Below are positions 28,387 to 57,925 of a stretch of 64,000 nucleotides of DNA, piece after piece. The notes under the pieces are model-generated. The model was not told where the DNA came from and did no database searches. It saw nothing but the letters and a program-made list of their open reading frames with translations. The DNA comes from Deltaproteobacteria bacterium (GTDB lineage: Bacteria; Myxococcota; XYA12-FULL-58-9): the NCBI GenBank assembly GCA_016218825.1, contig JACRCV010000064.1, positions 62,001 through 126,000 of the forward strand, in the 5' to 3' direction. Position numbers and translations under genes: made by a program. Position 1 is the stretch's first letter. Every line of letters begins with the position of its first letter.

Positions 28387-29616
28387 TCACGCAAACGAGC
28401 TGATTTGCAGCATCGGTAGAAGGATGGAAAAGACGATGAACGCGACGACGACACCCAAGAAGATGATCATGACCGGCTCGAGGATGCTGGTGAGCGCCCG
28501 GAGGCGCGCGTCGACCTGCACCTCGTAGGCGTGCGCGACGTTGTTGAGCATCTCTTCGAGCTGCCCCGACTTCTCGCCCACCGCGATCATGTGGACGACG
28601 ATCGGCGGAAACTCGCCGGAGCGCTTGAAGGGCGCGGCGATGGTCTCGCCCTCTTTGACGCAGTCGCGCGCGGTGTCGATGACACCAGCGAGCACGGTGT
28701 TCTGCACCACGTTCTTGACGATGTCGAAGGCGGTGAGCACCGGCACCCCGGCGCCGAGCAGGGTCGCGAGGGTCTTCGAGAACCGGGTCACCGCGATCAT
28801 CCGCACCAGCGAGCCGAACACCGGCACCTTGAGCACGAACCGGTCCCACCACGGCCGGCCGCGCTCGCTGTGGATGAAGCGGTTGAAGCCGACGATGGCG
28901 AGGATGAAGGTCGGCAGGGCGACGAACCAGTAGTCCTTGGCGAAGGCGCTGATGAGGATCAACGCCTGGGTCGGCAGCGGCAACACCGCGTTCTTCTGCG
29001 CCTCGAAGATCTTGGTGATCTTCGGGATCACGAAGGTGAACAACACCCCGGTCACCGCCGCCGCCATGCACATCATGATGATCGGATAGAACATGGTCGC
29101 GAAGATCTTGGAGCGCAGCTCCGCCTGGCTCTCGGTGAAGTCGGCGAGGCGGTTCAAGACGATGTCGAGCGCCCCCGAGGTCTCGCCGGCGCGCACCATG
29201 TTGACGAACAGGCCGGAGAAGATCTTGGGGTAGGTGCCGAGCGAATCGCCGAAGCCGGCGCCCTCGTTGACCCGCTGCTTGACGTCGGACCACACCGCCC
29301 GGAAGTGCTCGTGCTCGAGCTGCTCGACGAGCGCCCCCAAGGCGTCGACCAGCGGGATGCCGGCGCCGACCAAGGTCGCGAGCTGCCGGGTCGCGACCGC
29401 GAGCTCCTGCGACGACACCCGCTCGGCGAACAGCTTGATCTCGAGCTTCTTGCTGCCGGTGTCCTTCTTGGTCGCCGGACCGGTCTCCCGGAGCTCGGTG
29501 ACGAAGACGCCGTCGCGGCGCAGCACCAGCTTGATGGCCTTGTCGTTGTCGGCGTCCTTGGTGCCCGACACCACCCGCCCTTGGGCGTTGTAACCTTTGT
29601 AGGCAAAGACCGGCAT
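28387..29616 (-). CDS. gspF: Type II secretion system inner-membrane protein GspF
   Basis: The 409-residue protein has the two repeated cytoplasmic GspF domains and three membrane helices: about 170-195 (FYPIIMMCMAAAVTGVLFTF), 220-245 and 375-400 (EPVMIIFLGVVVAFIVFSIL). Motifs include MPVFAYKGYNAQGRVVSGTK at the start, RQLATLVGAGIPLVDALGAL and the repeat TLATLLGAGVPVLTAFDIVK. GspF is the central platform protein that passes ATPase motion to the pseudopilus. ATG 29616 shares one base with the gspE stop (TGATG). Confidence 0.95.
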   Translation of the reverse strand: MPVFAYKGYNAQGRVVSGTKDADNDKAIKLVLRRDGVFVTELRETGPATKKDTGSKKLEIKLFAERVSSQELAVATRQLATLVGAGIPLVDALGALVEQLEHEHFRAVWSDVKQRVNEGAGFGDSLGTYPKIFSGLFVNMVRAGETSGALDIVLNRLADFTESQAELRSKIFATMFYPIIMMCMAAAVTGVLFTFVIPKITKIFEAQKNAVLPLPTQALILISAFAKDYWFVALPTFILAIVGFNRFIHSERGRPWWDRFVLKVPVFGSLVRMIAVTRFSKTLATLLGAGVPVLTAFDIVKNVVQNTVLAGVIDTARDCVKEGETIAAPFKRSGEFPPIVVHMIAVGEKSGQLEEMLNNVAHAYEVQVDARLRALTSILEPVMIIFLGVVVAFIVFSILLPMLQISSFA

Positions 29617-31352
29617 CAGGCCGCGTCCTCGGAGGTCACGCGCAGCACCTCGGCGCTCGAGGTGATACCGGCCAGCACCTTGCGGGCCCCGTCCTCGCGC
29701 AAGGTCCGCATCCCCTGCGCCTGCGCCTTGCGCTTGATCGTCGTCGAGTCGACGTTTTGCAGGATCAGCTGCCGGATGTCGTCCGACGGCAGCATCATCT
29801 CGTAGATCCCGGTGCGCCCGAGGTAGCCGGTGTTGAAGCACGACGCGCAGCCGCGACCGCGCCACAGCTTTGGCATCGGCCCGACCATCTCCGGGCTCAG
29901 GCCGAGGTTGCGGATCTCCTCGGTGGTCGCGGTGTAGGACTCCTTGCAGTCCGAGCACAAGGTGCGCACCAGGCGCTGCGCCAGAATGCCGATGATCGAC
30001 GACGCGACGAGGAAAGGCTCGACCCCCATGTCGACCAGACGGGTGATGGCGCCGGGGGCGTCGTTGGTGTGCACGGTCGACAGCACCAGGTGGCCGGTGA
30101 GCGCCGCCTGGATCGCGATCTCGGCGGTCTCGACGTCGCGGACCTCGCCGACCATGATGACGTCCGGATCGTGGCGCAAGAACGAGCGCAGGCCGCTCGC
30201 GAAGGTCAGCTGGATCTTCGGGCTGATCTGCGTCTGGCTGATGCCCTCGAGCTGGTACTCCACCGGATCCTCGATCGTCAGGATGTTCAAGTCCGGGCGG
30301 TTGATGACCGAGAGCGCCGCATACAGCGTCGTGGTCTTGCCGGAGCCGGTCGGCCCGGTGACCAGGATGATGCCGTGGCTGCGCTCGATCAGCTGGTTCA
30401 TCGTCACCAGATGGTCGGGCGAGAACCCGAGGTCGGTGAGATCGAGGATGACGTTGGAGCGGTCGAGCAAGCGCATCGTGATCCGCTCGCCGTAGGTGGT
30501 CGGGGCGCTGGCGACGCGGATGTCGATGTCCTTGCCGGCGATGCGGATGCGGATGCGGCCGTCCTGCGGCAGACGCTTCTCGGCGATGTTCAGCCCCGCC
30601 TGGATCTTGACGCGGCTGATGATCGACGCCTGCAGCTTCTTCGGCGGCCGGATCTTTTCGTAGAGGATGCCGTCGATGCGGAAGCGCACCACCAGATCGC
30701 GCTCCCCGGGCTCGATGTGGATGTCGGAGGCGTGCTCCTTGACCGCTTGCGAGATCAAGGAGTTCACCAGGCGGATGATCGGCGCCTCGTCCTCGGCGTC
30801 GAGCAGGTCGACCGCCTCCTCGATGTCCTGCGCGAAGCTGTCGAGGTTCTCGTCGGCGAGCTCGTCCATCGCCGCGGCGGCGTGCGCCGAGCCGCGGTCG
30901 TAGGCCTTGTTGATCGCGTTGATGACGGTGTCGCTGGTCGCGAGCTCGAGCTCGACCGGGGCGCTCAAGAGCACGCCGATGTCGTCCACCGGGCCGACCT
31001 GTAGCGGATCGGCGCAGGCGACCCGCACCACGCCGTCGTCCCGCTGCCCGAGCGGCACCAGGCGATACTGCTTGGCGAAGTTGATCGGCACCTTGGTGAT
31101 CAGCTCGTCGGGGATCGCGCGGTCGTCGATCTTGTCGATCAGCGGCAGGTCGAGCTGCTCCGCGAGCGCCTTGACCAGATCCTCTTCGGAGAGCAGCTTC
31201 TGGCCGACCAACACTTCGCCCAAGCGGCCGCCGCGCTCGCTCTGGGTCGCGAGCGCCGCCGCCAACGACTCGGGGGTGACGCTGCCGCGGCGGAGCAAGA
31301 TCTCGCCGAGCTTCTCGTCACCGAACTGCGCCTGTGCGCTGCTCGCCACCAT
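29616..31352 (-). CDS. gspE: Type II secretion system ATPase GspE
   Basis: The 578-residue ATPase drives pseudopilus assembly from the cytoplasmic side. The N-terminal region has two MshEN-type motifs (KLGEILLRRGSVTPESLAAA and RLGEVLVGQKLLSEEDLVKA), a known cyclic-di-GMP-binding pattern. The C-terminal motor has Walker A GPTGSGKTTTLYA, Asp box LTIEDPVEYQLEG, Walker B DPDVIMVGEVRD, His box LSTVHTNDA and a zinc site of paired CxxC (CSDC and CASC). gspE overlaps gspF by one base and follows gspD after three bases. Cyclic-di-GMP control is inferred from the motifs only. Confidence 0.95.
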   Translation of the reverse strand: MVASSAQAQFGDEKLGEILLRRGSVTPESLAAALATQSERGGRLGEVLVGQKLLSEEDLVKALAEQLDLPLIDKIDDRAIPDELITKVPINFAKQYRLVPLGQRDDGVVRVACADPLQVGPVDDIGVLLSAPVELELATSDTVINAINKAYDRGSAHAAAAMDELADENLDSFAQDIEEAVDLLDAEDEAPIIRLVNSLISQAVKEHASDIHIEPGERDLVVRFRIDGILYEKIRPPKKLQASIISRVKIQAGLNIAEKRLPQDGRIRIRIAGKDIDIRVASAPTTYGERITMRLLDRSNVILDLTDLGFSPDHLVTMNQLIERSHGIILVTGPTGSGKTTTLYAALSVINRPDLNILTIEDPVEYQLEGISQTQISPKIQLTFASGLRSFLRHDPDVIMVGEVRDVETAEIAIQAALTGHLVLSTVHTNDAPGAITRLVDMGVEPFLVASSIIGILAQRLVRTLCSDCKESYTATTEEIRNLGLSPEMVGPMPKLWRGRGCASCFNTGYLGRTGIYEMMLPSDDIRQLILQNVDSTTIKRKAQAQGMRTLREDGARKVLAGITSSAEVLRVTSEDAA

Positions 31353-31355
31353 GGC

Positions 31356-34178
31356 TCAATCGGCTCCCTCGGGCTGCACCGGCGGCGGCTCGATGTCCGT
31401 CGGCGGCAAGACCGGTGCCGGCGCCGGCGTCACCTCGGGCGGCACGACGATCGAGTCGGGCTCCGCCTCCGTGGCCGGCGCGAGCTCGTCCGCCGCGACC
31501 CCGTCGGGTTGGATCAAGATCTCGCCGGCGTCGCCGCTGCCGCCGTTCTCCACCTTGGACTGCTCGCGTTTCAGCGCCGTGGCGAGCCGCGCCAACGGCC
31601 CGCTCTTGCGGTTGAAGTCGACGTAGGCCCGATACTCGGGGCGGTTGCCGTAGAACTCGGCGGCAAACTCGTCGTACTCGGCCATCTTGCGCTCGAAGAT
31701 CCGCTGGAAGTCCGAGCGGTCGTGAATGATGTAGGGGGTCAACACCAAGAGGAGATTGACCTTCTCGATGTCGGTGGAGCGCTGCTTGAAGAGCCAGCCG
31801 ATGAGCGGCAGGTCGCCCAAGATCGGGATCTTGCTCTCGGAGTCGCGCACCCGGTCGCGCATCAAGCCGGAGAGCACCACGGTCTCCTGGTCGTCGACGA
31901 CCACGGTGGTCTTGGTCGAGCGGTTCGCGGTGATCGGGGTGTCGGTGCTCTCGTCCTTGCCGACCACGTCCTCCACCTGCTGATCGATCTTCAGGCGCAC
32001 CTTGTCGCGCTCGTTGATCTGCGGGGTCAAGGTCAGCTTCAACGACACGTCGATGCGGTCGACCGAGGAGAACATGTTCCCGAGCAGCTGGGACGCCGCG
32101 CCGGCATTGAAGCCGCCGAGATTGCCGCCGACGCCGCCGGCGCCGCCGACCCCACCGACCGCCGGGAAGCCGCCGAGGCCGGGCATGCTGGTGCCGCGAC
32201 GAAACGGGATCTTCTGCCCGACCTCGATCGACGCCTCTTCGTTGTCGGTGGTGAGCACGTGCGGCGTCGACAAGATCTGGGCCGTCGACGACGACTGCAG
32301 CGCCTTCAAGATCACGCCGAAGCTCGGGATGCTGACGTTCTCGTCGCCGATCTTGAAGCTGATCCCCTTGCCGATGATCCCGGCCACCGAGCCGCCCGCG
32401 ACCCCGAGCAGCGCCGCCGGGCTGGCGAGCGCCCCGAGCGTCGGGCTGGTGCCGTTCGAGCTCTGCGCGCTCTGCAAGAAGCCCAAGGTGCCGTCACCGC
32501 CCAATTTGCTCCCGAGGTCGTTCTCCGAGAAGCGCATCGGCGTGTGCCAGTTGAGGCCGAACTTGTCGGAGTCGGTGACCGTCACCTCGAGGATCGCGGC
32601 CTCGACGTAGACCTGACGCCGTGGCACGTCGAGCTTCTCGATGATCTTGCGCAACGCGGTGAAGTCCCGGCCGCTCGACATGATGAGCAACGAGTTCGTC
32701 GACTTGTCCGCGGTGACCTTCACCTCGCCCTCGAACAACGACGCCGACTCGGCGCCCTTCGCGGCCGGCTGACCACCGGGGGCCCCGGGAGCGCCGCCGG
32801 CGCGGCCGGCCTTCTTGTTCGGCTGGCCCTGCGCCAGAGACGACAACGTGCTCGACAGCTCCTCGGCGTCGGCGTTCTCGAGATAGTAGACGTGCACCCG
32901 GCCGGTGCCGTCGCCGGTCGGGACGTCGAGCTTGGCGATCAGGCGCTTGATGGCGTCGAAGCTGCGGCGGTTCGCCTTGATGATGAGCTGGTTGGTGCGA
33001 TCGTCGGGCACGATCTTCGAGATGCTGACGTCGGCGGTCTCGTCGCTGCCGGGCGGCGCGCCGCCGGGCATGTCGGGTTGCGGCGGCTCGCCGGCCTTGC
33101 CGGTCGGTCTCGGCGGTCGCATCGGTCCGGGCCCGCCGGGCTTGGCGGCGCCCGCGGCGCCACCGGCCTTGACGTCGAACACCTGGGTGAGCTTGTCGGC
33201 GATCTCGGTCGCCACCGCGTACTTGATCTGCACGATCTGGAGCTCGTCCTCGAACCCGGGCACGTCGAGGGCGTCGATGATCCGCCGCACCCGCGCCAGG
33301 TTCGGCGCGTACTCGCTGATGATCAAGGCGTTCGAGGGCTGAAAGACGGTGATCTCGCCCTCTTTGCTGATCAGCGACTTCAACACCGGGTTCAGCACGT
33401 TCGAATCCACGTACTTCAGGTGCAAGAGCAGCGTCACCATCTGGTCGGCGTACTTCGGACACTCCTCGTCGTCGTCGCCGATGCAGGTGGGGATCGGGGA
33501 CTTGATGCCGTCCTTGGACTCGACCAGCTTGTAGAACTTGCCGGAGCGCACGATGGTGATGCCGTTGACCTCGAGGGCGACCAGAAACACCTGGTAGGCC
33601 TCGGCCGCCGTGATCTTGGTCGGCGACAAGATCGTGATCCGCTGGCCCTTGATCTTCTCCGGGATGATGAAGTTTCGCTGCGTCAGGTTGGAGATCGCCT
33701 TCACCACGTCGGCGATCTCGGCCTTCGAGAACTCGAAGCTGAACTTGCCCTTCTTGGCGCGGGCCGCAAAGTCGATCTCGCTCTCGGGCTTCTCGGCAGC
33801 AGCGGCGCCTTGCGGCAGGCTCGGGGGCTGACCGGGAGACGGCGGCACCGGCAACGGCGGCCGGGGCGTCGGGTTCGGGGCCGGGCTCGGCGTCGGGCTC
33901 GGGGGAGGACGTTCACCCGGCTTGCCCTCCGAACCGCCGCTCTGGGCTTCTTCTTCCGCGGCCTGCCCGGCCAGCGGATGACGCTTCAGCGACGCCTTCA
34001 TCGCGTCGCGCGCCATGAAGCGACGCGGCCCGGGAGGCGGCGGTCGCGCCTCGCCCTCTTCCTGGGCCAGGTACCATCTCGAGCTCGAGGCCTCGTCCAC
34101 GAGCACCGGCGGCCGCGCGCCCGACGACGGTGGCGACGAGGCGGCGAGCAACGACAGCACAGCGGACGCGAACACCAT
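31356..34178 (-). CDS. gspD: Type II secretion system secretin GspD
   Basis: The 940-residue outer-membrane channel protein has a signal peptide (FASAVLSLLAASSPPSSGA), a Pro/Glu-rich linker of about 120 residues not typical of the family, N0 (about 140-220: SFEFSKAEIADVVKAISNLT), N1-N3 repeats (about 230-530, with Gly/Pro-rich loops) and the secretin core (VEVGQKIPFRRGT and VVDDQETVVLSGLMRDRV). The tail is Pro-rich and acidic. GspD forms a ring of about 15 subunits through which folded proteins leave. It lacks a lipobox, and no pilotin gene is recognised nearby. Confidence 0.95.
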   Translation of the reverse strand: MVFASAVLSLLAASSPPSSGARPPVLVDEASSSRWYLAQEEGEARPPPPGPRRFMARDAMKASLKRHPLAGQAAEEEAQSGGSEGKPGERPPPSPTPSPAPNPTPRPPLPVPPSPGQPPSLPQGAAAAEKPESEIDFAARAKKGKFSFEFSKAEIADVVKAISNLTQRNFIIPEKIKGQRITILSPTKITAAEAYQVFLVALEVNGITIVRSGKFYKLVESKDGIKSPIPTCIGDDDEECPKYADQMVTLLLHLKYVDSNVLNPVLKSLISKEGEITVFQPSNALIISEYAPNLARVRRIIDALDVPGFEDELQIVQIKYAVATEIADKLTQVFDVKAGGAAGAAKPGGPGPMRPPRPTGKAGEPPQPDMPGGAPPGSDETADVSISKIVPDDRTNQLIIKANRRSFDAIKRLIAKLDVPTGDGTGRVHVYYLENADAEELSSTLSSLAQGQPNKKAGRAGGAPGAPGGQPAAKGAESASLFEGEVKVTADKSTNSLLIMSSGRDFTALRKIIEKLDVPRRQVYVEAAILEVTVTDSDKFGLNWHTPMRFSENDLGSKLGGDGTLGFLQSAQSSNGTSPTLGALASPAALLGVAGGSVAGIIGKGISFKIGDENVSIPSFGVILKALQSSSTAQILSTPHVLTTDNEEASIEVGQKIPFRRGTSMPGLGGFPAVGGVGGAGGVGGNLGGFNAGAASQLLGNMFSSVDRIDVSLKLTLTPQINERDKVRLKIDQQVEDVVGKDESTDTPITANRSTKTTVVVDDQETVVLSGLMRDRVRDSESKIPILGDLPLIGWLFKQRSTDIEKVNLLLVLTPYIIHDRSDFQRIFERKMAEYDEFAAEFYGNRPEYRAYVDFNRKSGPLARLATALKREQSKVENGGSGDAGEILIQPDGVAADELAPATEAEPDSIVVPPEVTPAPAPVLPPTDIEPPPVQPEGAD

Positions 34179-36606: not shown

Positions 36607-39132
<2,526 letters not shown>

Positions 39133-39901: not shown

Positions 39902-40360
39902 CTACGGCTGCGACCCCGGCATCACGCCGATGCCGACGTCGGTGAACCCCGCCTGGCGCGCGACGTCGATGACGTGCACCACCTTGCGATGCGCGAGGTC
40001 GCCGTCGGCGTCGATGACCAGCGCCAGCTTCGGGTTCTTCTCGATCCGAACCTTCAAGGTATCGAGGAGCTGATCGTCGGCGGTGACCTCGCCCGCCACC
40101 GCCACCCGTCCGTCTTTGAGGATGCTCACCACCAGCGCCTCCGGGATCGGGGTGCTGGTGACCGCGGCCCCGGCGGTGGGCAGATCGACCTCGAGCTGGC
40201 CTTCGCGCGCCGCGTCGACCATCGCCGACGACGACACCATGAAGATGATCAGCAGCACCAGGATGACGTCGGTGAGCGGGGTGATGTTGACCTCGGCGAA
40301 GAAGGCCTCGCCGCCGTCCTCTTCCGCTTCATCGGTCGGCAGCGGTCCCCGTAACGCCAC
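39902..40360 (-). CDS. exbD: ExbD/TolR-family proton-channel protein
   Basis: The 152-residue protein has one membrane helix with the essential channel Asp (NITPLTDVILVLLIIFMVSS) and a periplasmic domain (PEALVVSILKDGRVAVAGEV). ExbD/TolR proteins pair with ExbB/TolQ to form a proton-driven motor. GTG 40360 is preceded by GAGGTGAAAC and overlaps the end of exbB by 32 bases. The motor could energise the AgmX/PglI proteins at 36.6 and 54.4 kb, as AglQ/AglS do for Glt proteins in Myxococcus; TonB- or Tol-type use is also possible. Confidence 0.9.
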   Translation of the reverse strand: MALRGPLPTDEAEEDGGEAFFAEVNITPLTDVILVLLIIFMVSSSAMVDAAREGQLEVDLPTAGAAVTSTPIPEALVVSILKDGRVAVAGEVTADDQLLDTLKVRIEKNPKLALVIDADGDLAHRKVVHVIDVARQAGFTDVGIGVMPGSQP

Positions 40361-40979
40361 GTTTCACCTCGGTCCCGCGCACCGCCAGCTCTTCGACGAT
40401 CTCTTCGGTCGCGTCCTTGAGCTCGGCCGCGAAGCTTCCGGCCTGGGATTGCAGGTAGTTGAAGAAGATCATCGCCTCGACGCCGACGAAGATGCCGGCG
40501 GCGGTGGTGATCAACGCCTCGCTGATGCCGCCCGACACCACCTGAAAACCCCCGGTCCCGGTCTCGGAGATGCGGCGGAACGCGTCCATGATGCCGAGCA
40601 CGGTGCCGAACAGGCCGATGAACGGCGAGGTCGCGCCGATCGTCGCCAGGATCCAGAGGCGCACCCGGGAGCCGCGGACGATGCGCTGCTGCACGCGCCG
40701 CACGTGATTGGGCCGCGCGAGGTCGTCGCTCAAGATCAGCTCGAACAACGGTGCGCCGGGATGCGCCGGCATCGTCGAGTTGACCGCCCGCGCCATCGTC
40801 AGGTTGCCCTCTTTGAGGTGCTGCAGGATGCGGTCGGCGGCGCCCTCCATCCGCTTGCGGAAGGTCAACATCGCTGTGATCCGCTCCAGACCGATCCCCA
40901 ACGCCAACACCGACATGATGATCAGCGCCACCAGCGTCGGCCCGCCGTGCTCCAAGTAGGTCTGAATACCGTCAGGCAT
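40329..40979 (-). CDS. exbB: ExbB/TolQ/MotA-family proton-channel protein
   Basis: The 216-residue protein has three membrane segments: about 14-34 (GPTLVALIIMSVLALGIGLE), about 110-135 (LWILATIGATSPFIGLFGTV) and about 150-175 (ISEALITTAAGIFVGVEAMI). The family signature GATSPFIGLFGTVLGIMDAF followed by GISEALITTAAG is intact. With ExbD it forms an inner-membrane stator that uses proton flow. It is 30 bases from the start of the propeller-like lipoprotein gene's stop and transcribed in the same direction. Confidence 0.92.
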   Translation of the reverse strand: MPDGIQTYLEHGGPTLVALIIMSVLALGIGLERITAMLTFRKRMEGAADRILQHLKEGNLTMARAVNSTMPAHPGAPLFELILSDDLARPNHVRRVQQRIVRGSRVRLWILATIGATSPFIGLFGTVLGIMDAFRRISETGTGGFQVVSGGISEALITTAAGIFVGVEAMIFFNYLQSQAGSFAAELKDATEEIVEELAVRGTEVKRGVTGTAADR

Positions 40980-45441: not shown

Positions 45442-46053
45442 TCACCGCGGCCGGCTGCTCTCGGTGGCGAGCGCGGCGTCGATGCGGATCTCGGTCCCGG
45501 GGTAGCAGGGCGCGTCCTGGGCCCAAGGCTCGAAGCCCGGCTTCTGCACCGTCAGGTGCAGACGGCGCTCCTTGCACTCGAGCTCCAACACCGCCGGCGT
45601 CACGCCGCGCTCGCGACCGTCGACTTTGACCGTGCCACCATCGGGCATCGAGCGGATGACGACGGTCATCGAGTCGCGTCCGAGCGGGTCGGTGAGCATC
45701 GGCACCGTGAGCTTGACGCCGACGCCGTGGGCCCATTCGCTGGCCGTCGGCGCCAGGTAGCGCGCGAACACGTCGATATAGGGCCGCGAGAACACCGCCA
45801 GCACCGCGACCACGGCACCGCAGCGCGCCAACAGCTGCAGCAGATCTACCGCGCGCTCGCCGACCCGCACGAACATCGGCTCGAGCGCTTCGGCGACGCC
45901 GCCGCTCGGCGTCACCACGGCCGGCGCCGGCGAGGCGTTCGCGATCGCCGCCGGGGTCGCCGCCCTCGGCATGGTGTTGACGTAGACGATCTCCTCGGCG
46001 CGCGGCATCGCCAGGGGCTCGTCTTCTTGGTCTGGGCGTTTCGGTGGCGTCAT
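45442..46053 (-). CDS. PEGA-domain membrane protein
   Basis: The 203-residue protein starts at ATG 46053 in an ATGA overlap with the GspE-like gene's stop. After a low-complexity N-terminus it has one probable membrane segment (LLQLLARCGAVVAVLAVFSR, about 85-105) and a C-terminal PEGA domain (about 140-190: SMTVVIRSMPDGGTVKVDGR, ERGVTPAVLEL, LHLTVQKPGFEPW). PEGA domains are short beta folds found outside the cytoplasm in surface-layer or envelope proteins. The tight coupling with a secretion-type ATPase suggests that both act in one envelope complex. The stop is three bases from the convergent lipoprotein gene. Confidence 0.85.
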   Translation of the reverse strand: MTPPKRPDQEDEPLAMPRAEEIVYVNTMPRAATPAAIANASPAPAVVTPSGGVAEALEPMFVRVGERAVDLLQLLARCGAVVAVLAVFSRPYIDVFARYLAPTASEWAHGVGVKLTVPMLTDPLGRDSMTVVIRSMPDGGTVKVDGRERGVTPAVLELECKERRLHLTVQKPGFEPWAQDAPCYPGTEIRIDAALATESSRPR

Positions 46054-47555
46054 CCGACGACCCTCAACACCTCGCGCAGCGAGGTGATCCCGGCGATGGC
46101 GCAGCCGAGCCCGTCTTCGAGCAGCGGCGGCATCCCACCTTGAACCGCGGCCTCGTGGATCCGGCCGGTCGGAACCTTGGAGATGATGAGATCGCGGATC
46201 GAGGGGTCGACCTCGAGGATCTCGACGAGCGGCCGCCGGCCGACGTACCCCTGCCCGTCGCAGCGCGGACAACCGATGGGCTTGTAGACCCGGCCGAGGT
46301 CACGGGCCCCGAGCTGCTCCAGGCGCGCGGCCTCGTCGGCGGTCGGCTCGGTGGGCACGCGGCAGTCGGGGCACAGCGCTCGCACCAGCCGCTGGGCGAC
46401 CGAGGCCACCGACGCCGAGGCGACCAGGAACGGCTCGATCTGCATGTCAATCAGGCGGTTGAAGACCCCGGCCGCCGACTCGGCGTGGATCGTCGTCAAG
46501 ATCAGGTGACCGGAGAGCCCGGCCTGCACCGCGATGCGCGCGGTCTCCGGGTCGCGGATCTCGCCGACCAGCATCACGTTCGGATCTTGGCGCAAGATCG
46601 AGCGCAACCCGGCGGCGAACGACAGGCCGACGTCGGGCTGCACCTGGGTCTGGGTCAAGAACGGCAGGTCGGACTCGATCGGGTCTTCGATGCTGGCCAG
46701 GTGCACCGCCTGCCCGCGCCGGCTCTTGATGTGGCCGAGGGCGGCGTAGATCGTGCGCGTCTTGCCGCTGCCGGTCGGCCCGGTGACGTAGATCAAGCCC
46801 TGCGGATGGTCGAGCGCCCGCTGCAGCCGGGTGGCGGCGGCGCTCGAGATGCCGAGCGACGCGAACCCGGGCAGCTCGCCGGTCGCGGCCGCGAGGCGCA
46901 GCACCGCCTTCTCGCCGTGGTTGGTGGGCAAGATCGAGACTCGCACATCGGCGGTGCCGCGCGGCCCGAGCCCCAAGAACCGCCCGTCCTGGGGTCGATC
47001 GCTGACGAATGACACCAGCCGGGTCAGGACCTTCAGGCGGTTGAGGATCGGGCGATGCAGCTCGGTCGCGAGCGTCAACACCGGGGTGATGAGGCCGTGC
47101 AGGCGATACGAGATCTGAACCCCGTCGGTGACCGGCTCGACGTGAATGTCGCTGGCCCCGAGCGCCAGGCCGCCGTAGACCACCTGGTCGACGAGCTCGA
47201 TGAGGTCGGGCGGTGGCCCGAGGTGACGCTTCAGTCGAACCGTCAGGGCGAGCAGCCGGTCGCGCAAGCCCGCCGAGGCCTCCGCGGCCTGGGCGACCGC
47301 CTCCTGCGCCGCGACCGTCTTTGCCGCCACGCGCGCCAGGATGCGCCGCAGCCCGAGCGCGGCGACGGTGCCCAAGGCCCAGATCCCACCGCCGCCCCAC
47401 ACCAGCGGCTTCTGCGCCGCGTCGCGCGCCAGATTCAACGCGCCGCTCAGACCGTCGGCGAAGGTCCCCGGGCGGTAGTACACCCACCACGCCAGGATCC
47501 CGACGACGACGGCGAGCCAGAAGAGTCGCCCGAGCAGCCGCTGCAGCGCATGCAT
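46050..47555 (-). CDS. GspE/PilB-type ATPase with N-terminal membrane helices
   Basis: The 501-residue ATPase carries the full secretion-ATPase core: GASDIHVEPV and YRLHGLI, Walker A GPTGSGKTRTIYA, Asp box ASIEDPIESDLPFL, Walker B QDPNVMLVGEIRDPE, LILTTIHAES, and a zinc site (CPDC and CPRC). The usual MshEN N-terminal domain is missing. Instead residues 9-27 (LFWLAVVVGILAWWVYYRPG) and about 50-70 (LVWGGGGIWALGTVAALGLR) are hydrophobic, which would anchor it in the inner membrane. I chose ATG 47555 with AGGAGAG upstream. The PEGA gene overlaps its stop. No GspF-like partner is adjacent, so how its force would be used is unknown. Confidence 0.88.
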   Translation of the reverse strand: MHALQRLLGRLFWLAVVVGILAWWVYYRPGTFADGLSGALNLARDAAQKPLVWGGGGIWALGTVAALGLRRILARVAAKTVAAQEAVAQAAEASAGLRDRLLALTVRLKRHLGPPPDLIELVDQVVYGGLALGASDIHVEPVTDGVQISYRLHGLITPVLTLATELHRPILNRLKVLTRLVSFVSDRPQDGRFLGLGPRGTADVRVSILPTNHGEKAVLRLAAATGELPGFASLGISSAAATRLQRALDHPQGLIYVTGPTGSGKTRTIYAALGHIKSRRGQAVHLASIEDPIESDLPFLTQTQVQPDVGLSFAAGLRSILRQDPNVMLVGEIRDPETARIAVQAGLSGHLILTTIHAESAAGVFNRLIDMQIEPFLVASASVASVAQRLVRALCPDCRVPTEPTADEAARLEQLGARDLGRVYKPIGCPRCDGQGYVGRRPLVEILEVDPSIRDLIISKVPTGRIHEAAVQGGMPPLLEDGLGCAIAGITSLREVLRVVG

Positions 47556-47702
47556 CAACCACTCTCCTGGCACGAACAGCCACCGACGGGCAAGAGGCGA
47601 GAATGGCCGGGGTGTCAGCGGTAGCGTGAAACGGTGGCCCGAATGACCGGACGCCGCCGGCCGATAACTTGCGCAAGGCCACAGCGCGGGTGAAGATGCG
47701 CC

Positions 47703-51746: not shown

Positions 51747-54377
51747 TCACGCCAACGGCGCTGCTGGACGGCGATCGGTCTCGGGCTCGGGCGTGGCACC
51801 GGAGTCGGTCTGCTCGACGTGACCGGTGAGGAGCTGCAGCTCGCGGGTCGCGATCTTCTTCACCACCGGGTCGTCGTGCCGGGTGCCGTCGGTGAGCCAC
51901 GACTCGCGCGGCTTGTTGAAGTGCGACTGCCACCACTCCGCCCAGCGCGCCACGTCGGCGCCGAAGTTCTGACCGCAGATCACGGTGAGCGCCGAGCTCG
52001 CGGCGCGCGCCAACCCTTGCCGCGGCGACACCACCAGCGGGATGAGCGACGGCACCGCGGAGGGCTCGCGCAATTGCCCCAACACCTGGACGGTCGCCAC
52101 CTGGGCCTCGAACACCGGCACCTTCAAGTGGTCGCGCAGCCCCTGGACGATGCGGCGATAGCTCGGCTCCGAGCGGTAGACCCGCAGGGCGTCGGCGGCG
52201 AGGAAGCGATTGCGCGGTTCGGCGTCGTAGAGTCGCCGCGACAGCATCTCGATCGCCGGCGGGTAGGCGACCGCGTAGAGGTAGTAGATCGCGAAGAAGC
52301 GCCGCAGGCGGTCGTCGCTCTCGAAGTTCGGCAGCACCAGCTCGGCGGCACCGGCGCCGCGCGCCGCGAGCAGCGCCGTGATCCCCGAGCAGCGCGAGAA
52401 CGGCGGCAAGCGCAAGTCGGAGGCGAACGGATCGACCGCGACCCGCCCCGGAAAGCGCCGCGCCAGCTCCTCGTCGGCGCTGCTGCCGACCGCGAGGAGC
52501 TTCTCGATCGCGCGCCGCCAGACCTCCGGATCGTTGGCGTCGAGGCTGTCGAGCAACATCGCGGTCTCGTCCATGCGGGTGCCGGCGATCTCGACGCTGC
52601 GCGACGCGGCCGCGGCCATGATGTCCGGCGCGGCGTCGGCCTCGGCGATGACGTGCTCCCAGGTCACCGAGGGCGGCGGCGCCTTGGCGGCGGCCGGCGC
52701 CACGACCGCGCCCCGCTCCAACCCCGCGGTCTCGACCAGCACGTCCTCCCAGTCGCCCACCGACTCCTCCGGGGAGGCGGTGATGTCGGCGAACGCGACG
52801 TACTCGCCGTCGGTGCCCGCGGCCTCCTCGGCGGTCTCCACCGAGACGCAGAGCTCCCCGCCGCCGTCGTCCGCCGGCGGCGGCGCCACCGACGCCACGC
52901 CCTCGATCCCCTTGCGGAAGTCGGCGGTCGCGGCCTCGGGCGAGGTGTCGACGGCGAACGCGCCCGAGAACGGCGAGTCGTTGATGGAGTCGACCTGCAC
53001 CGACTCCCACGGGTCGGGGTCGCGGGCGGTCGCCGTGGTCGTCGCGTCGCCCTCCATGCCCGGCAGCAACTCGACCTCGGGGGCGGCGTGCTCGGCGGTC
53101 GCGGCGGCCGGGTCGGCGAACGGGGTCGACGGCGCGGGCCCGATCTCCGAAATCTCGGGGAGGAGCTCGTACTCCTCGTCCTCGAGGACCGTGACCTCGG
53201 CGTCGGTCGCGATCGGCGCGGACAGCGCCAGCTCGACGGCGGCGGCGTCCGGTGCTTCGGGGGCCTCCGGGGTCGCGGCGACCGGGGCCGCGGCGCCGGC
53301 GATCATCTTGCCGGTGGCGCTCTTCTTGCGGCGGATCAGCGCCTCCAGACACATGCCGGCGCGGTGGGTGACGAGCAACAGCGACGCCACCCGCTTCGAC
53401 GACACCGGCTTGGCGCCGTTGTCGGCGTAGACGATCGCGGCGAGCTTGCCGCCGACGAGGATCGGGGCCAAGAACGCGGCGCGCGGCGCGGTGCGGCCCA
53501 GATCTTCGATGAGCTGGGCGTTGACGCTGTTGGACGGCAACGGCCCGAGGTAGTGGCCGCTCGTGGCATAGATGGTCTGGAACACGCTCGGCAGGCTCAC
53601 CGGCAAGGTCACCCGGGCGATGCGTGCCGAGCTCTCGGGATCGATGCCGCGCCAACCGTTCACCTGCTCGCCGTGAATGACGAACATCGCGACGAACTCG
53701 AAGGTCGTCGCCATCACCTCGAGGAGAATGTCGACGATGGCGTCGCGATCCTGGGCCGCGACCAGGCGCGACAACAGGCCGCCCTTCTGGCGCACGTCTT
53801 CTTTGCGCCGCGCCGGGGTCTGGCGCACGGTCGACAACCCCCACGACAGCACGTGCTGCGTCCCGGCGCCGTCGACGTGGCTCACGAGCGCGTCGAGCGC
53901 GGCGTCACCGTCGAGCTTGGCGAGCAGGGTCCGGAAGCGCGGCAACAGTTGGGTGCCGTAGAGGCGACACATCGCGTGGTGCAGCCGCACCTCGGTGGTG
54001 ACGCTCGGCTGCACGTTCAAGCTCAGGCGCTCGCGGATGCGGGCGTAGAGCTGCGGATCGGCCGGGCGGTTGACGAGCACCCCGAGGTCCTGGCCCTCGA
54101 GACGAAACGGCACCAGGTGATAGGTCTCGGCGAACAGCAGCGGGAACAGGCGCGGGATATAGGGCGCGACCGCCTCGATCTCGTTTCGGCCGGCGCTCGG
54201 CATCTGGTAGGCCTCGGAGAGGGCGCCGAGCACGAAGGGCTCGGTGATCGCGCCATTCTCGAGGAGCACGGTGTCGAGGCTGCCGCCCTCGACGACCTGC
54301 CGCTGAACGGCGTCCTCCACCGCGGCGGCGCGGATGATGTGGTTCTTGATCAGGCTCTGCGCGAGGAGATCGACCAT
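51747..54377 (-). CDS. MshEN-like, GAF-like and HEAT-repeat protein without ATPase domain
   Basis: The 876-residue soluble protein starts at ATG 54377. Residues 1-150 resemble the MshEN/GspE-N fold (SLDTVLLENGAITEPFVLGA; PRLFPLLFAETYHLVPFRLE), though the cyclic-di-GMP motifs are degenerate. Residues about 215-370 look like a GAF domain (ILLEVMATTFEFVAMFVIHG; FLAPILVGGKLAAIVYADNG). A 270-residue acidic, low-complexity linker follows. The C-terminus (about 650-840) has HEAT-like repeats (VFEAQVATVQVLGQLREPSA, VPSLIPLVVSPRQGLARAAS). No motor domain is present. It lies eight bases after the AgmX-type gene and is probably a cytoplasmic regulator or scaffold of the same complex. Confidence 0.8.
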   Translation of the reverse strand: MVDLLAQSLIKNHIIRAAAVEDAVQRQVVEGGSLDTVLLENGAITEPFVLGALSEAYQMPSAGRNEIEAVAPYIPRLFPLLFAETYHLVPFRLEGQDLGVLVNRPADPQLYARIRERLSLNVQPSVTTEVRLHHAMCRLYGTQLLPRFRTLLAKLDGDAALDALVSHVDGAGTQHVLSWGLSTVRQTPARRKEDVRQKGGLLSRLVAAQDRDAIVDILLEVMATTFEFVAMFVIHGEQVNGWRGIDPESSARIARVTLPVSLPSVFQTIYATSGHYLGPLPSNSVNAQLIEDLGRTAPRAAFLAPILVGGKLAAIVYADNGAKPVSSKRVASLLLVTHRAGMCLEALIRRKKSATGKMIAGAAAPVAATPEAPEAPDAAAVELALSAPIATDAEVTVLEDEEYELLPEISEIGPAPSTPFADPAAATAEHAAPEVELLPGMEGDATTTATARDPDPWESVQVDSINDSPFSGAFAVDTSPEAATADFRKGIEGVASVAPPPADDGGGELCVSVETAEEAAGTDGEYVAFADITASPEESVGDWEDVLVETAGLERGAVVAPAAAKAPPPSVTWEHVIAEADAAPDIMAAAASRSVEIAGTRMDETAMLLDSLDANDPEVWRRAIEKLLAVGSSADEELARRFPGRVAVDPFASDLRLPPFSRCSGITALLAARGAGAAELVLPNFESDDRLRRFFAIYYLYAVAYPPAIEMLSRRLYDAEPRNRFLAADALRVYRSEPSYRRIVQGLRDHLKVPVFEAQVATVQVLGQLREPSAVPSLIPLVVSPRQGLARAASSALTVICGQNFGADVARWAEWWQSHFNKPRESWLTDGTRHDDPVVKKIATRELQLLTGHVEQTDSGATPEPETDRRPAAPLA

Positions 54378-54385
54378 GGCGCGCT

Positions 54386-56383
54386 CTAGAATCCCATCTG
54401 CAACAGGTAAGGGTAGCTGACCGTCACCGGCTCGCCGTTGAATCGCGGAAACTTCCAGCTCTTGATGCGGCGCACCGCGCAGCCGGCCATCTGCGTGCTC
54501 CTGAACTCCGGCGCCTCGATCTTCACCTCCGGGACGCTGCCGTCGGGCGCGATCGTCAGAAAGATCTCCATCTTGCCGGAGAGCTTCTCGCCTTTGCGCA
54601 TCGACTCGGTCAGGCAGAGGTTCATCGAACGGCTGTTGTCGGTGATGACCTTGAAGATGGTCTCCTGCGTCAAGCCGCTCGGCAGATTCACCGCCGCGAC
54701 CTCGGTGGGCTCGGCGAGGTTCACCTGGGTCTCGCGCTTGTTGGTGTCGGCGAACACCGAGGTCGCGAGCTTGCGCTGCTCTTCGTCCATCGCCCCGGCT
54801 TCCTTGACCCCTTCGCCGGCGGCGACCGTCTCGGTGCCGGCGCCCGCGTGTTGCGCTTGGCCGCCGCTGGCGCGCGGCTTGGCGCCGTGGCTCACCTGGC
54901 CCAAGAGCTTGCGCCGCATCTGTTCGAGCTCGCCGCGCTTCGAGGGATCGAGCCCCTCGTCCGAGAGCCGCTCCTCGACGCGCTTGACGGCGCGGTCCTT
55001 GTTGGGGTCGACGAGGCCGGTGACGTCGTACAGCATCCCCATGCCTGGGATCTGGATGGTGCCGACGATATCGAGAGACACCACCCCCACCAAGGTCACC
55101 GAGACCAGGATGCCGACCGCCGCCGCGACCCGATGCGTCCGGCGCCGGCGATAAAGGCCCGCGGTCGCCATGAAGACCCGGGTCGACTCACCCGGCGGCG
55201 CGTTGACGTAGGCCTGGTTCACCTCGCTCTGTGGGTCGCTGAAGTACGGCGTTCGGTCGTCGCCGCTGCCGGTGGTCGCGCGGCCAAAGCCGTCGCCGCC
55301 GCCGAGCGCGCCGCCCACCGGCTCCTCGGTGGCCGCCGGAAACTCCGACGGCATCGCCGCATCGTCGTGGTCGGCGGCCGGCGCCGACGTCGGGAACGCG
55401 TCCGGCAAGTCGTCCGCGGTGCGCGGCGACGCGCTTGGCTGCAACCCGGCGGCGCGCGCCGGGTTACGACCCGGCATCGGCCGCGTCAGGCGCTCGCCGG
55501 TGGGGATCCCGGTCAGCGCGCTCAACAGCTCCGGCGTCTGCGCCTCGGGTGGCGGCGTCTGCGCCTCGGGTGGTGCGCCGGTTGCCGTCGGCTCGGACAC
55601 TGCCGGCACGCGATCGTTTCCGGGATCAGTGGTCGGCTCGGGCTCCGCCGCGGACGGCGGCGCGCTGTCGACCGCGGACTTGGACTTCGCCAACGCGCTC
55701 TGCAGCTGGCGGGCGTTCATCGCCACGGTGTTCTCGCCCGATTCGAAGGGATTCGGCCCGGGCGCGGCCACCGGGTCGCAGGTCGGCTGCATCACCCGCC
55801 ACGCCGCCGGCCCGGCGCGCTCCGCCTGGTCCTTGAACTCCGGGACTGTGCCCAGGCGTTGCCACTCCGCCATCCCGTCCTTCCAGATGTAGGAGCGCTT
55901 GTCGACCTCGTTGTGGGCCAGCATCTCGACGAGCGTCGACGCGGCGAGCGGCCCTTTCTGCTTGCCGGCGATGAGTACGTACCACTCTTCGGCGTCGGGA
56001 GCGGCCCGGGGCGGCGCCGACGGCGCGGCCGTGACCGCCCCCGCGGCGGCTCCGAGCTGGCGCTGGGCTTCGACGAGCTTGTTGATCTCCGCCCGCGACG
56101 AGACCCGCGTGGTCTCGTGCTCCGGGGTGAAGTCGCCGGACGCTTCGTGGCGCAGCCGATTGATCTCGTTCAGGTTCGCGACCCGGGTCGAGCCACCGTC
56201 AAAGGACGCCGGCGCCGGGGTGGGCGCCGGTGCGGCGCTCTGGGCGCCGGGCGTCGGCCCCTTGCGGCGCAGGCGAATGACGGTGCCGCACTTCCGACAC
56301 GGGAAGCGCAGCGTCGTCGCCGCCGGCACCTTCTCGTCGCCGATCGAGTAGCGGGTGTTGCATTTGGGACAGGTGAACTTCAC
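54386..56383 (-). CDS. Zinc-ribbon/GYF/AgmX-type envelope protein (GltJ-like)
   Basis: The 665-residue protein starts at GTG 56383, overlapping the upstream stop (GTGA). Residues 1-38 are an MJ0042 zinc ribbon (VKFTCPKCNTRYSIGDEKVP and FPCRKCGTVIRL). A GYF-type domain lies at about 131-180 (WYVLIAGKQKGPLAASTLVE, YIWKDGMAEWQRLG). One membrane helix follows at about 411-438 (AAAVGILVSVTLVGVVSLDI), and the C-terminal 95 residues are the AgmX/PglI domain (TIFKVITDNSRSMNLCLTES, IKSWKFPRFNGEPV). This is the domain order of GltJ/AgmX, the gliding-complex protein of Myxococcus xanthus whose zinc finger and GYF domain contact polarity regulators. No mglA/mglB is in the window, so motility is only a possibility. 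Confidence 0.85.
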   Translation of the reverse strand: MKFTCPKCNTRYSIGDEKVPAATTLRFPCRKCGTVIRLRRKGPTPGAQSAAPAPTPAPASFDGGSTRVANLNEINRLRHEASGDFTPEHETTRVSSRAEINKLVEAQRQLGAAAGAVTAAPSAPPRAAPDAEEWYVLIAGKQKGPLAASTLVEMLAHNEVDKRSYIWKDGMAEWQRLGTVPEFKDQAERAGPAAWRVMQPTCDPVAAPGPNPFESGENTVAMNARQLQSALAKSKSAVDSAPPSAAEPEPTTDPGNDRVPAVSEPTATGAPPEAQTPPPEAQTPELLSALTGIPTGERLTRPMPGRNPARAAGLQPSASPRTADDLPDAFPTSAPAADHDDAAMPSEFPAATEEPVGGALGGGDGFGRATTGSGDDRTPYFSDPQSEVNQAYVNAPPGESTRVFMATAGLYRRRRTHRVAAAVGILVSVTLVGVVSLDIVGTIQIPGMGMLYDVTGLVDPNKDRAVKRVEERLSDEGLDPSKRGELEQMRRKLLGQVSHGAKPRASGGQAQHAGAGTETVAAGEGVKEAGAMDEEQRKLATSVFADTNKRETQVNLAEPTEVAAVNLPSGLTQETIFKVITDNSRSMNLCLTESMRKGEKLSGKMEIFLTIAPDGSVPEVKIEAPEFRSTQMAGCAVRRIKSWKFPRFNGEPVTVSYPYLLQMGF

Positions 56384-57843
56384 AAGATGCTCACCAGGTG
56401 CTGCTTGATCTGTTCCTGAATCTCGGCGGTCGGCGCCGCCTTCAGGCAGCGCTCCCACATCTCGACCGCTTTGTTGCGAAACCCTTTGGCCTGATACAAG
56501 AGCGCCAGGTTCTTGGTCGCCGCGAACAGGCTCTGGTCCAGCTCGATGGCGCGCTCGTAGTGATAGATCGCCTGAAACGCGCGCCCCTGCTGCTCGAGCA
56601 CCCGCCCGAGCATGAATTGGATCTTGGCGGAGAACGGCTCGATGGTCTCCGCGGCGCGCAGCGCCTTGAACGCGGTCGCGTGATCGTTGGCCTGGTAGGC
56701 CTTGACGCCGGCGTCGTACTGACTGACCGCCTCGCGGTTCAGCTGGTCGTCGCTGACCTTCAGCGGCGTCTTGGCGAGGAGCGCCTCGGTCTGCCGCCGG
56801 AGCTCGTTGATGCGGAACGGCTTCTCGAGGAACGAGTCGACGCCGTAGAGCGCCTTGATGTCCTCGGCGATGCGCCAGCCGCGGTAGATCGCCGACACCA
56901 TCAGCACCGGCGTGCTCCCGAAGCGCTTCGACTCTTTCACCTTGCGGCAGATCTCAAAGCCGTGCACCTCGGGGAGCATCGCGTCGAGGATGATCAGATC
57001 CGGGCGCCGGTTCTTCACCAGCTGCAGCGCCTCCGCGCCTCGGGTCGCGGCGACCAACTCGTGGCCGAGGCTCTTCAAGGCCTCGACCACCAACGTCTGG
57101 ATCTCGGGCTCGTCGTCGACGACCAGGATCACCTTCCGACCCACCGTCACCGCTGCCGCGGCCGGCGTGTCCGAAAGACGCGGCGCTGGTGCCGCGGTCG
57201 CCGCCGCGGTCACGGCGGTCGCCGGGCCGTGGCGCGGCGGACTGGCGCCGGAGACGAGCTCGAGGGGCTCGTCGGTGAGGTCGATCTCGAACTCGATCGG
57301 GTCGGAGGCGGAGAGCGCCGCGCTCACCGGCGGCGCTGCCGGCACATCGACCACGAGCACCAACGCTCCGGGTTTCGCGCCCTTGGCCCGCGGGCCCTCG
57401 TAGACCTCGCTGCGGTTGGCGTACGCCTTGGCGATCGCGTCCAACAGCCTGAGGTGCAAGGCCACGTGCGGCCGAACCTTGAGGCCGGTCGCGAACCCGA
57501 TCTCGTCGATGGTCTTCTGGTCGCGGGGATTGGCCATCGCCAACAGCAGGTTGTCGCCGTCTTCCGCCAGCGGCAACACCACGTGCTGCTTGGCGACCGC
57601 GTGCGGCACCTTGTCGAGCGCGGCCCGGGGCACGGCGACCGCCGGCAGATCTACCGCCGGCACCCCGGTCTGATGCGCCAGCACCCGGAGCACGTCAGCC
57701 TCGGGGACCCGGCCGGAGCTGGCGGCGACCGAGCCGAAACGGGTGTTGGCGATCACCGTTTCGACCGCGATGGTCTCGGCGAGCGAGCGGCTGAGCAGCC
57801 CGCGCGTCACCAGACGATCGCCGATTCGTCCCTGTTCCGGCAT
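56380..57843 (-). CDS. MshEN-receiver-TPR protein without ATPase domain
   Basis: The 487-residue protein starts at ATG 57843 with GGGAGG upstream. Residues about 1-145 form an MshEN domain with motifs RIGDRLVTRGLLSRSLAETI and RFGSVAASSGRVPEADVLRV (partly degenerate cyclic-di-GMP sites), followed by LPLAEDGDNLLLAMANPRDQ as in GspE-N. A Pro/Ala linker leads to a receiver domain at about 233-352 (VILVVDDEPEIQTLVVEALK, LIILDAMLPEVHGFEI with phospho-Asp, FLEKPFRINEL). The end (about 375-485) is TPR. It thus joins two signal inputs to a protein-docking module. Its stop overlaps the start of the GltJ-like gene, so both products are made together. Confidence 0.88.
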   Translation of the reverse strand: MPEQGRIGDRLVTRGLLSRSLAETIAVETVIANTRFGSVAASSGRVPEADVLRVLAHQTGVPAVDLPAVAVPRAALDKVPHAVAKQHVVLPLAEDGDNLLLAMANPRDQKTIDEIGFATGLKVRPHVALHLRLLDAIAKAYANRSEVYEGPRAKGAKPGALVLVVDVPAAPPVSAALSASDPIEFEIDLTDEPLELVSGASPPRHGPATAVTAAATAAPAPRLSDTPAAAAVTVGRKVILVVDDEPEIQTLVVEALKSLGHELVAATRGAEALQLVKNRRPDLIILDAMLPEVHGFEICRKVKESKRFGSTPVLMVSAIYRGWRIAEDIKALYGVDSFLEKPFRINELRRQTEALLAKTPLKVSDDQLNREAVSQYDAGVKAYQANDHATAFKALRAAETIEPFSAKIQFMLGRVLEQQGRAFQAIYHYERAIELDQSLFAATKNLALLYQAKGFRNKAVEMWERCLKAAPTAEIQEQIKQHLVSIL

Positions 57844-57925
57844 GCGCCTCCCTGAGTCCCGCGGCAACTTCGATACTAGCCGCGAGCGGTGGGTGGGTCC
57901 ACACCCCGAGGCGCGAGATCCATCA

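Follow-up and report, generated by a model that had tools for sequence, protein, structure and literature searches.

The motor ATPases of the GspE/PilB class are treated as soluble engines that are recruited to a platform built from other proteins. PilT and PilU are not known to have the N-terminal GSPII/MshEN domain. According to a recent review, the assembly ATPases carry this domain in addition, and PilB is a cytoplasmic motor that docks in the socket of PilM and engages PilC (PMC11656802). The locus described here encodes a GspE-class ATPase with a membrane hairpin at its N-terminus, followed by the gene for a PEGA-domain membrane protein. The ATPase seems to belong to a new, membrane-tethered subfamily of the GspE/PilB class in which most members would power a two-protein machine of the inner membrane, a reading to which we assign slightly better than even odds (a probability of about 0.55). 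In the open-access literature neither a GspE-class motor with a membrane anchor nor an ATPase-PEGA pair was found described; subscription papers lay mostly outside the scope of that search, and this negative result is weak evidence for novelty.

Two overlapping genes for a motor and a PEGA protein

The window is the whole stretch of 64,000 nucleotides that was analysed. Its interval 45442-47555 is filled exactly by two minus-strand genes, one for the ATPase and one for the PEGA protein (Table 1), and the stop codon of the former overlaps the start codon of the latter as ATGA; the first-pass annotation had noted the overlap. Hydropathy profiles contain two peaks before residue 80 of the ATPase and a single one, at residues 66-90, in the PEGA protein.

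Membership of the ATPase in the superfamily of GspE, PilB, PilT and VirB11 follows from its Pfam T2SSE match, which scores 311.7 bits over residues 118-498 against a gathering score of 24.9; two generic AAA models match below their cut-offs. The Pfam scan gives no MshEN match, and this absence can be taken as real, since the same scan finds MshEN together with T2SSE (491.5 bits) in the GspE of the type II secretion system (T2SS) encoded in the window. The 12 family members that were scanned likewise all match T2SSE, and none of them matches MshEN. Among the NCBIfam models, that of GspE is nearest (394.2 bits, below its cut-off of 630.25), followed by PilB (339.1 bits, below 675.65) and the PilT family (133.8 bits, below 319.1). 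The Walker A, acidic, Walker B and His boxes are invariant across 23 aligned members, as are the four zinc-type cysteines C395, C398, C429 and C432. With its motifs intact, and judging from what is known of the family, the ATPase is probably an active hexameric motor. The first-pass annotation had credited the protein with all motor motifs and the zinc site, and with two N-terminal hydrophobic segments in place of MshEN; both descriptions stand.

The AlphaFold monomer of the ATPase (mean pLDDT 82.7) is helical at residues 2-27 and again at 50-110, the first half of the second helix having low confidence, while the motor part lies mostly at pLDDT 80-97 with weaker stretches. Foldseek places this model closest to the cores of PilF/PilB and EpsE/GspE, with TM scores of about 0.7-0.9 by target length, the best PilB/PilF entries being 5oiu, 5it5 and 5tsh; nothing among the best 50 rows matched the N-terminal helices. 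The PEGA protein, whose Pfam PEGA match reaches 38.9 bits against a gathering score of 20.8, is modelled by AlphaFold as a disordered tail, a helix at residues 66-99 and a small sandwich, the last with block-mean pLDDT values of 88-97 over residues 131-200. A structural search of the PDB with this model returned only weak matches, to transthyretin-like and Ig-like sandwiches in general.

Table 1. Features of the ATPase-PEGA locus and of the T2SS operon, in window coordinates
Feature	Position	Strand	Basis
GspE/PilB-class ATPase, membrane-anchored, 501 aa, ATG start	46050..47555	-	ORF; Pfam T2SSE
AGGAG, ribosome-binding-like site 8 bases 5' of the ATPase ATG (putative function)	47564..47568	-	sequence
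ATPase transmembrane segment 1, residues ~7-25	47481..47537	-	hydropathy; AlphaFold helix 2-27; kept in relatives
ATPase transmembrane segment 2, residues ~51-75	47331..47405	-	hydropathy; inside low-confidence AlphaFold helix 50-110; kept in relatives
Motor domain (N2D + C-terminal ATPase domain), residues 118-498	46062..47204	-	Pfam; AlphaFold; Foldseek
Walker A GPTGSGKT, residues 259-266	46758..46781	-	alignment
Tetracysteine zinc-type site, C395-x2-C398 ... C429-x2-C432	46260..46373	-	invariant in 23 aligned members
Single-pass PEGA protein, 203 aa	45442..46053	-	Pfam PEGA 7.9e-10; partner in 52/61 family loci
PEGA protein transmembrane segment, residues ~66-90	45784..45858	-	hydropathy; AlphaFold helix 66-99
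PEGA domain, residues 129-196, predicted periplasmic, with Cys160 and Cys183	45466..45669	-	Pfam; AlphaFold; cysteine counts
T2SS operon	35652 down to ~21464	- (pair's strand)	Pfam; gene names partly by position
T2SS secretin	31356-34178	-	Pfam
T2SS GspE	29616-31352	-	Pfam
T2SS GspF	within 28387-29958	-	Pfam

A family of anchored motors and its PEGA partner

Relatives of the ATPase were sought in 195 genomes of the window's phylum with a profile built from three orthologues. There are 32 strong full-length matches, the window included, at 715-1057 bits and ten weaker ones at 449-493 bits, and ordinary paralogues score at most 395 bits with this profile. The same 42 genomes came back with a second profile, which added a further one (G036). 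In a second phylum 17 of 377 genomes hold members, L118 being among its records, and at least one further member, L126, sits in a Fermentibacteria bin, which brings the family to at least 61 loci with the window counted: the first set of 42, G036, the 17 of the second phylum and L126. Occurrence is patchy, since no member was found in G001-G007, the searched genomes that share the genus, family or order of the window. Carriers include at least Myxococcus xanthus AM003, M. vastator, Pyxidicoccus fallax and two Archangium species. The records of M. xanthus and M. vastator carry the pair, the M. vastator contig ending inside the partner gene, and the module is thereby open to study in Myxococcus. 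In one orthologue (L039, in genome G026) the motor gene is interrupted by a TAG in the linker that follows the hairpin, and at another locus (L040, in genome G049) the partner gene is frameshifted before its membrane helix; given this stop and this frameshift, some copies may be decaying or mis-assembled.

The hairpin is a trait of the family. Over the 125 residues before the N2D domain, 57 of the 60 members measured show two hydrophobic peaks (L126 and L271, and 55 of the other 58), as against one of 95 ordinary GspE-type rows that came from the same searches. Two of the three exceptions are cut by contig ends, and the third, L208, has a weaker second peak. The remaining member, L039, with the stop codon in its linker, lies outside this count; its frame, followed past the stop, encodes the hairpin as well. 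In eight Myxococcus-type orthologues, substitutions in codons 1-75 number 218, 225 and 500 at the first, second and third codon positions, and because they fall mostly on third positions this part of the ATPase gene looks translated. A start downstream of both hydrophobic segments, which the first-pass annotation had named as its possible undoing, is not supported; the relatives keep the hairpin in frame, and the eight Myxococcus-type orthologues show the third-position bias.

The motors also form a group of their own when the hairpin is set aside. In a motor-domain tree of 71 sequences, which excludes the hairpin, includes 23 of the 42 first-set loci and leaves out L271, all 41 sampled family members fall into one clade with support of 100/100. 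From this tree 22 rows had been removed beforehand (ordinary proteins that formed long branches or nearly duplicated others); in an earlier quick tree of 83 rows that still included them the family is one starred group, with L126 inside it. The clade splits into seven members without a partner (100/98) and a branch of 34 (97/89), 33 of which have the partner, the exception being L206. One gain and one later loss would suffice to account for the history of the partner; the mirror image would do so too, as the tree does not settle where the family is rooted.

The partner gene lies directly downstream of the motor gene, with an overlap or a short gap, in 52 of the 61 family loci: in all 42 of the first set, where one contig (L075) ends before the PEGA domain, and in ten of the 17 of the second phylum, mostly with the same four-base overlap. 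It is absent beside the motors of G036 and L126. At 33 ordinary GspE-type loci the partner profile matched nothing within about 1.5 kb. Because that profile is partner-specific, a second control was made in the window's genome, and comparison of coordinates there singled out this ATPase as the only one of ten T2SSE genes with a PEGA match directly downstream. The same 6.5-Mb genome contains 52 PEGA matches, many of them in long open frames.

The partners are weakly conserved, at 20-28% identity to the window copy, and all 23 that were scanned match Pfam PEGA. They share a pair of cysteines in the PEGA domain, found in 51 of 52 partners with a widened pattern (39 of 52 with a narrow one), the remaining partner being cut off by a contig end. 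None of the 20 other PEGA domains examined among the 52 matches in the window's genome has the pair. The two cysteines probably form a periplasmic disulfide.

Around the pair, gene content varies. The first 42 loci lie in many unrelated neighbourhoods, and in a clustering of their neighbours the partner is the sole one to persist across contexts; no third gene is shared across genera, the other clusters being common only to close relatives. This clustering used a crude gene caller, so that some antisense frames are listed, and was confined to the first set, with the second-phylum loci left out. A small secreted cysteine-rich protein encoded upstream in some loci (L040 and L041, of Myxococcus type) was considered as a candidate substrate and rejected, as it occurs in only six of the 42, and neighbouring genes were rejected as a replacement for the platform, there being no third recurring gene in the same 42 loci. 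The first-pass annotation had proposed that a self-anchored motor and a PEGA protein make a new two-gene module, and had tied this proposal to the recurrence of the pair in other genomes. The pair does recur and is conserved, which supports the proposal, and the two proteins probably bind one another.

Nine loci have an anchored motor and no adjacent PEGA gene, so the anchor either predates the pairing or extends beyond it. Eight of them are solo members (L118, L126, L234, L236, L238, L239, L240 and L271), which shows that the motor can act with no PEGA gene beside it. At the ninth, L206 (4703-7461), the place of the partner is taken by a Ser/Thr kinase gene with a four-base overlap and a C-terminal hydrophobic helix in its product. 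Neither a PEGA domain, on reading the sequence, nor a partner-profile match was seen in this kinase, and a link between kinase and PEGA by way of L206 was rejected on these grounds.

Genomic setting and possible modes of action

The first-pass annotation saw no GspF, pilin or secretin gene close to the pair. This has to be corrected: a T2SS operon with secretin, GspE and GspF genes lies about 9.8 kb away (Table 1). The operon also encodes a GspL that resembles PilM and a GspC-like protein with a PDZ domain, the match to which is just below the Pfam cut-off, and it carries its own GspE; the ATPase-PEGA pair lies outside the operon and is not part of it. When the first 42 loci were clustered, none of the genes that recur beside the relatives was recognised as a Gsp gene. 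Across the window's genome there are ten matches to T2SSE and four loci of platform type, two of GspF/PilC type (PilC-type on contig C79 and GspF on C40) and two Tad-like (C70 and C107), the types being judged from neighbours and domain pattern. Contigs C29 and C8 each carry another full-length gene of the GspE class, with no platform gene within the 9-10 kb read, so the lack of a nearby platform gene does not set the pair apart in this genome. What is unusual here is thus the membrane anchor of the motor, not its orphan state.

Several other genes were noted in passing. The orphan ATPase on C8 (L274, 2847-4835, plus strand) has an N-terminus that by eye resembles a cyclic-nucleotide-binding domain. 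Near the MshEN-less motor, the window encodes on its minus strand two proteins with MshEN and without T2SSE, one with weak HEAT-repeat similarity (51747-54377) and one with a response-regulator domain and TPRs (56380-57867). A zinc-ribbon/GYF/TonB-like protein (54386-56458), an FHA protein with a TonB-like tail (36607-39132) and an ExbB/ExbD pair (39902-40979), all on the minus strand, are reminiscent of the myxobacterial Glt/Agl or Nfs machinery.

In the mechanism that we propose, a short membrane hairpin would replace the soluble N-terminal docking domain, and the motor, presumably a hexamer, would sit on the inner membrane by itself. As the hairpin would tether it there, a recruiter of the GspL/PilM type would not be needed. 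In the branch of the window gene the PEGA gene is probably co-translated with that of the ATPase, and its product is predicted to be bitopic: a tail in the cytosol, a single helix and, in the periplasm, a PEGA domain stabilised by a disulfide. The two proteins most likely touch and form one inner-membrane complex, through which ATP-driven motion of the ring could pass by way of the hairpin to the PEGA protein and from there to something in the periplasm or the cell wall. A bolder form of this proposal, distinctly tentative, is that in a ring of six tethered GspE-class ATPases the hairpins and PEGA replace the platform, so that ATP hydrolysis would bring about periplasmic movement or export without pilins, secretin or GspF. 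If that were true, the branch of solo motors would be a simpler form of a platform-free machine.

The main rival explanation is an accessory role, in which the anchored ATPase drives a platform (PilC, GspF or Tad) whose genes lie elsewhere, for alternative extension or retraction, and the PEGA protein positions or regulates it. This is possible but not what we favour. The ATPase is clearly of the GspE/PilB class, the genome does encode platforms on the four contigs named above, and in the review cited above PilT-class motors engage PilC without an N-terminal docking domain (PMC11656802). However, permanent tethering conflicts with the exchange of motors described for the type IV pilus in the same review, and in the first 42 loci, as judged by clustering alone, none of the recurring neighbours was recognised as a gene for a platform, pilin or secretin.

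A rather improbable alternative is that the ring acts as a signalling switch and not as a force generator, its ATP-driven states reporting on the cell or sensing the envelope through PEGA. PilB of M. xanthus has been reported as a signalling protein (PMC5544727), and at L206 a kinase gene overlaps the motor gene where the PEGA gene would be; yet that replacement is a single case, and the catalytic motifs are all strictly kept, as in an active motor. Hardly credible is an artefact, with the hairpin being translated upstream sequence or the pairing due to chance: the ATPase frame does stay open far 5' of its ATG (797 aa from the first GTG), but, as far as sequence allows, this reading is already refuted by the conserved hairpin with its third-position bias and by a pairing frequency of 52/61 against 0/33 in ordinary loci.

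A clade with a self-anchored engine, one branch of which keeps a single dedicated partner predicted to face the periplasm, offers a simple setting for the question of how motors of this class transmit force across the inner membrane.

Comparison with described systems

Among the closest described systems is the GspE of type II secretion (EpsE/XpsE), which has the N2D and ATPase domains and the zinc tetracysteine in common with the window ATPase; identity to the window's own T2SS GspE is about 40%. The window ATPase differs in that it lacks N1D/MshEN, has two N-terminal membrane helices, is encoded outside the gsp operon and falls into a separate clade. PilB/PilF provides the best structural match to the core of the model, and here the differences are the membrane hairpin and the missing N-terminal docking domain. 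With PilT and PilU the ATPase shares precisely that lack of an N-terminal GSPII/MshEN domain, and it is the membrane hairpin that sets it apart from them. The partner, finally, resembles the PEGA surface proteins (PF08308) in possessing one PEGA domain above the Pfam cut-off; unlike these it is a predicted bitopic protein, is tied genetically to an ATPase and bears the cysteine pair that distinguishes it from the 20 other PEGA domains examined in its genome.
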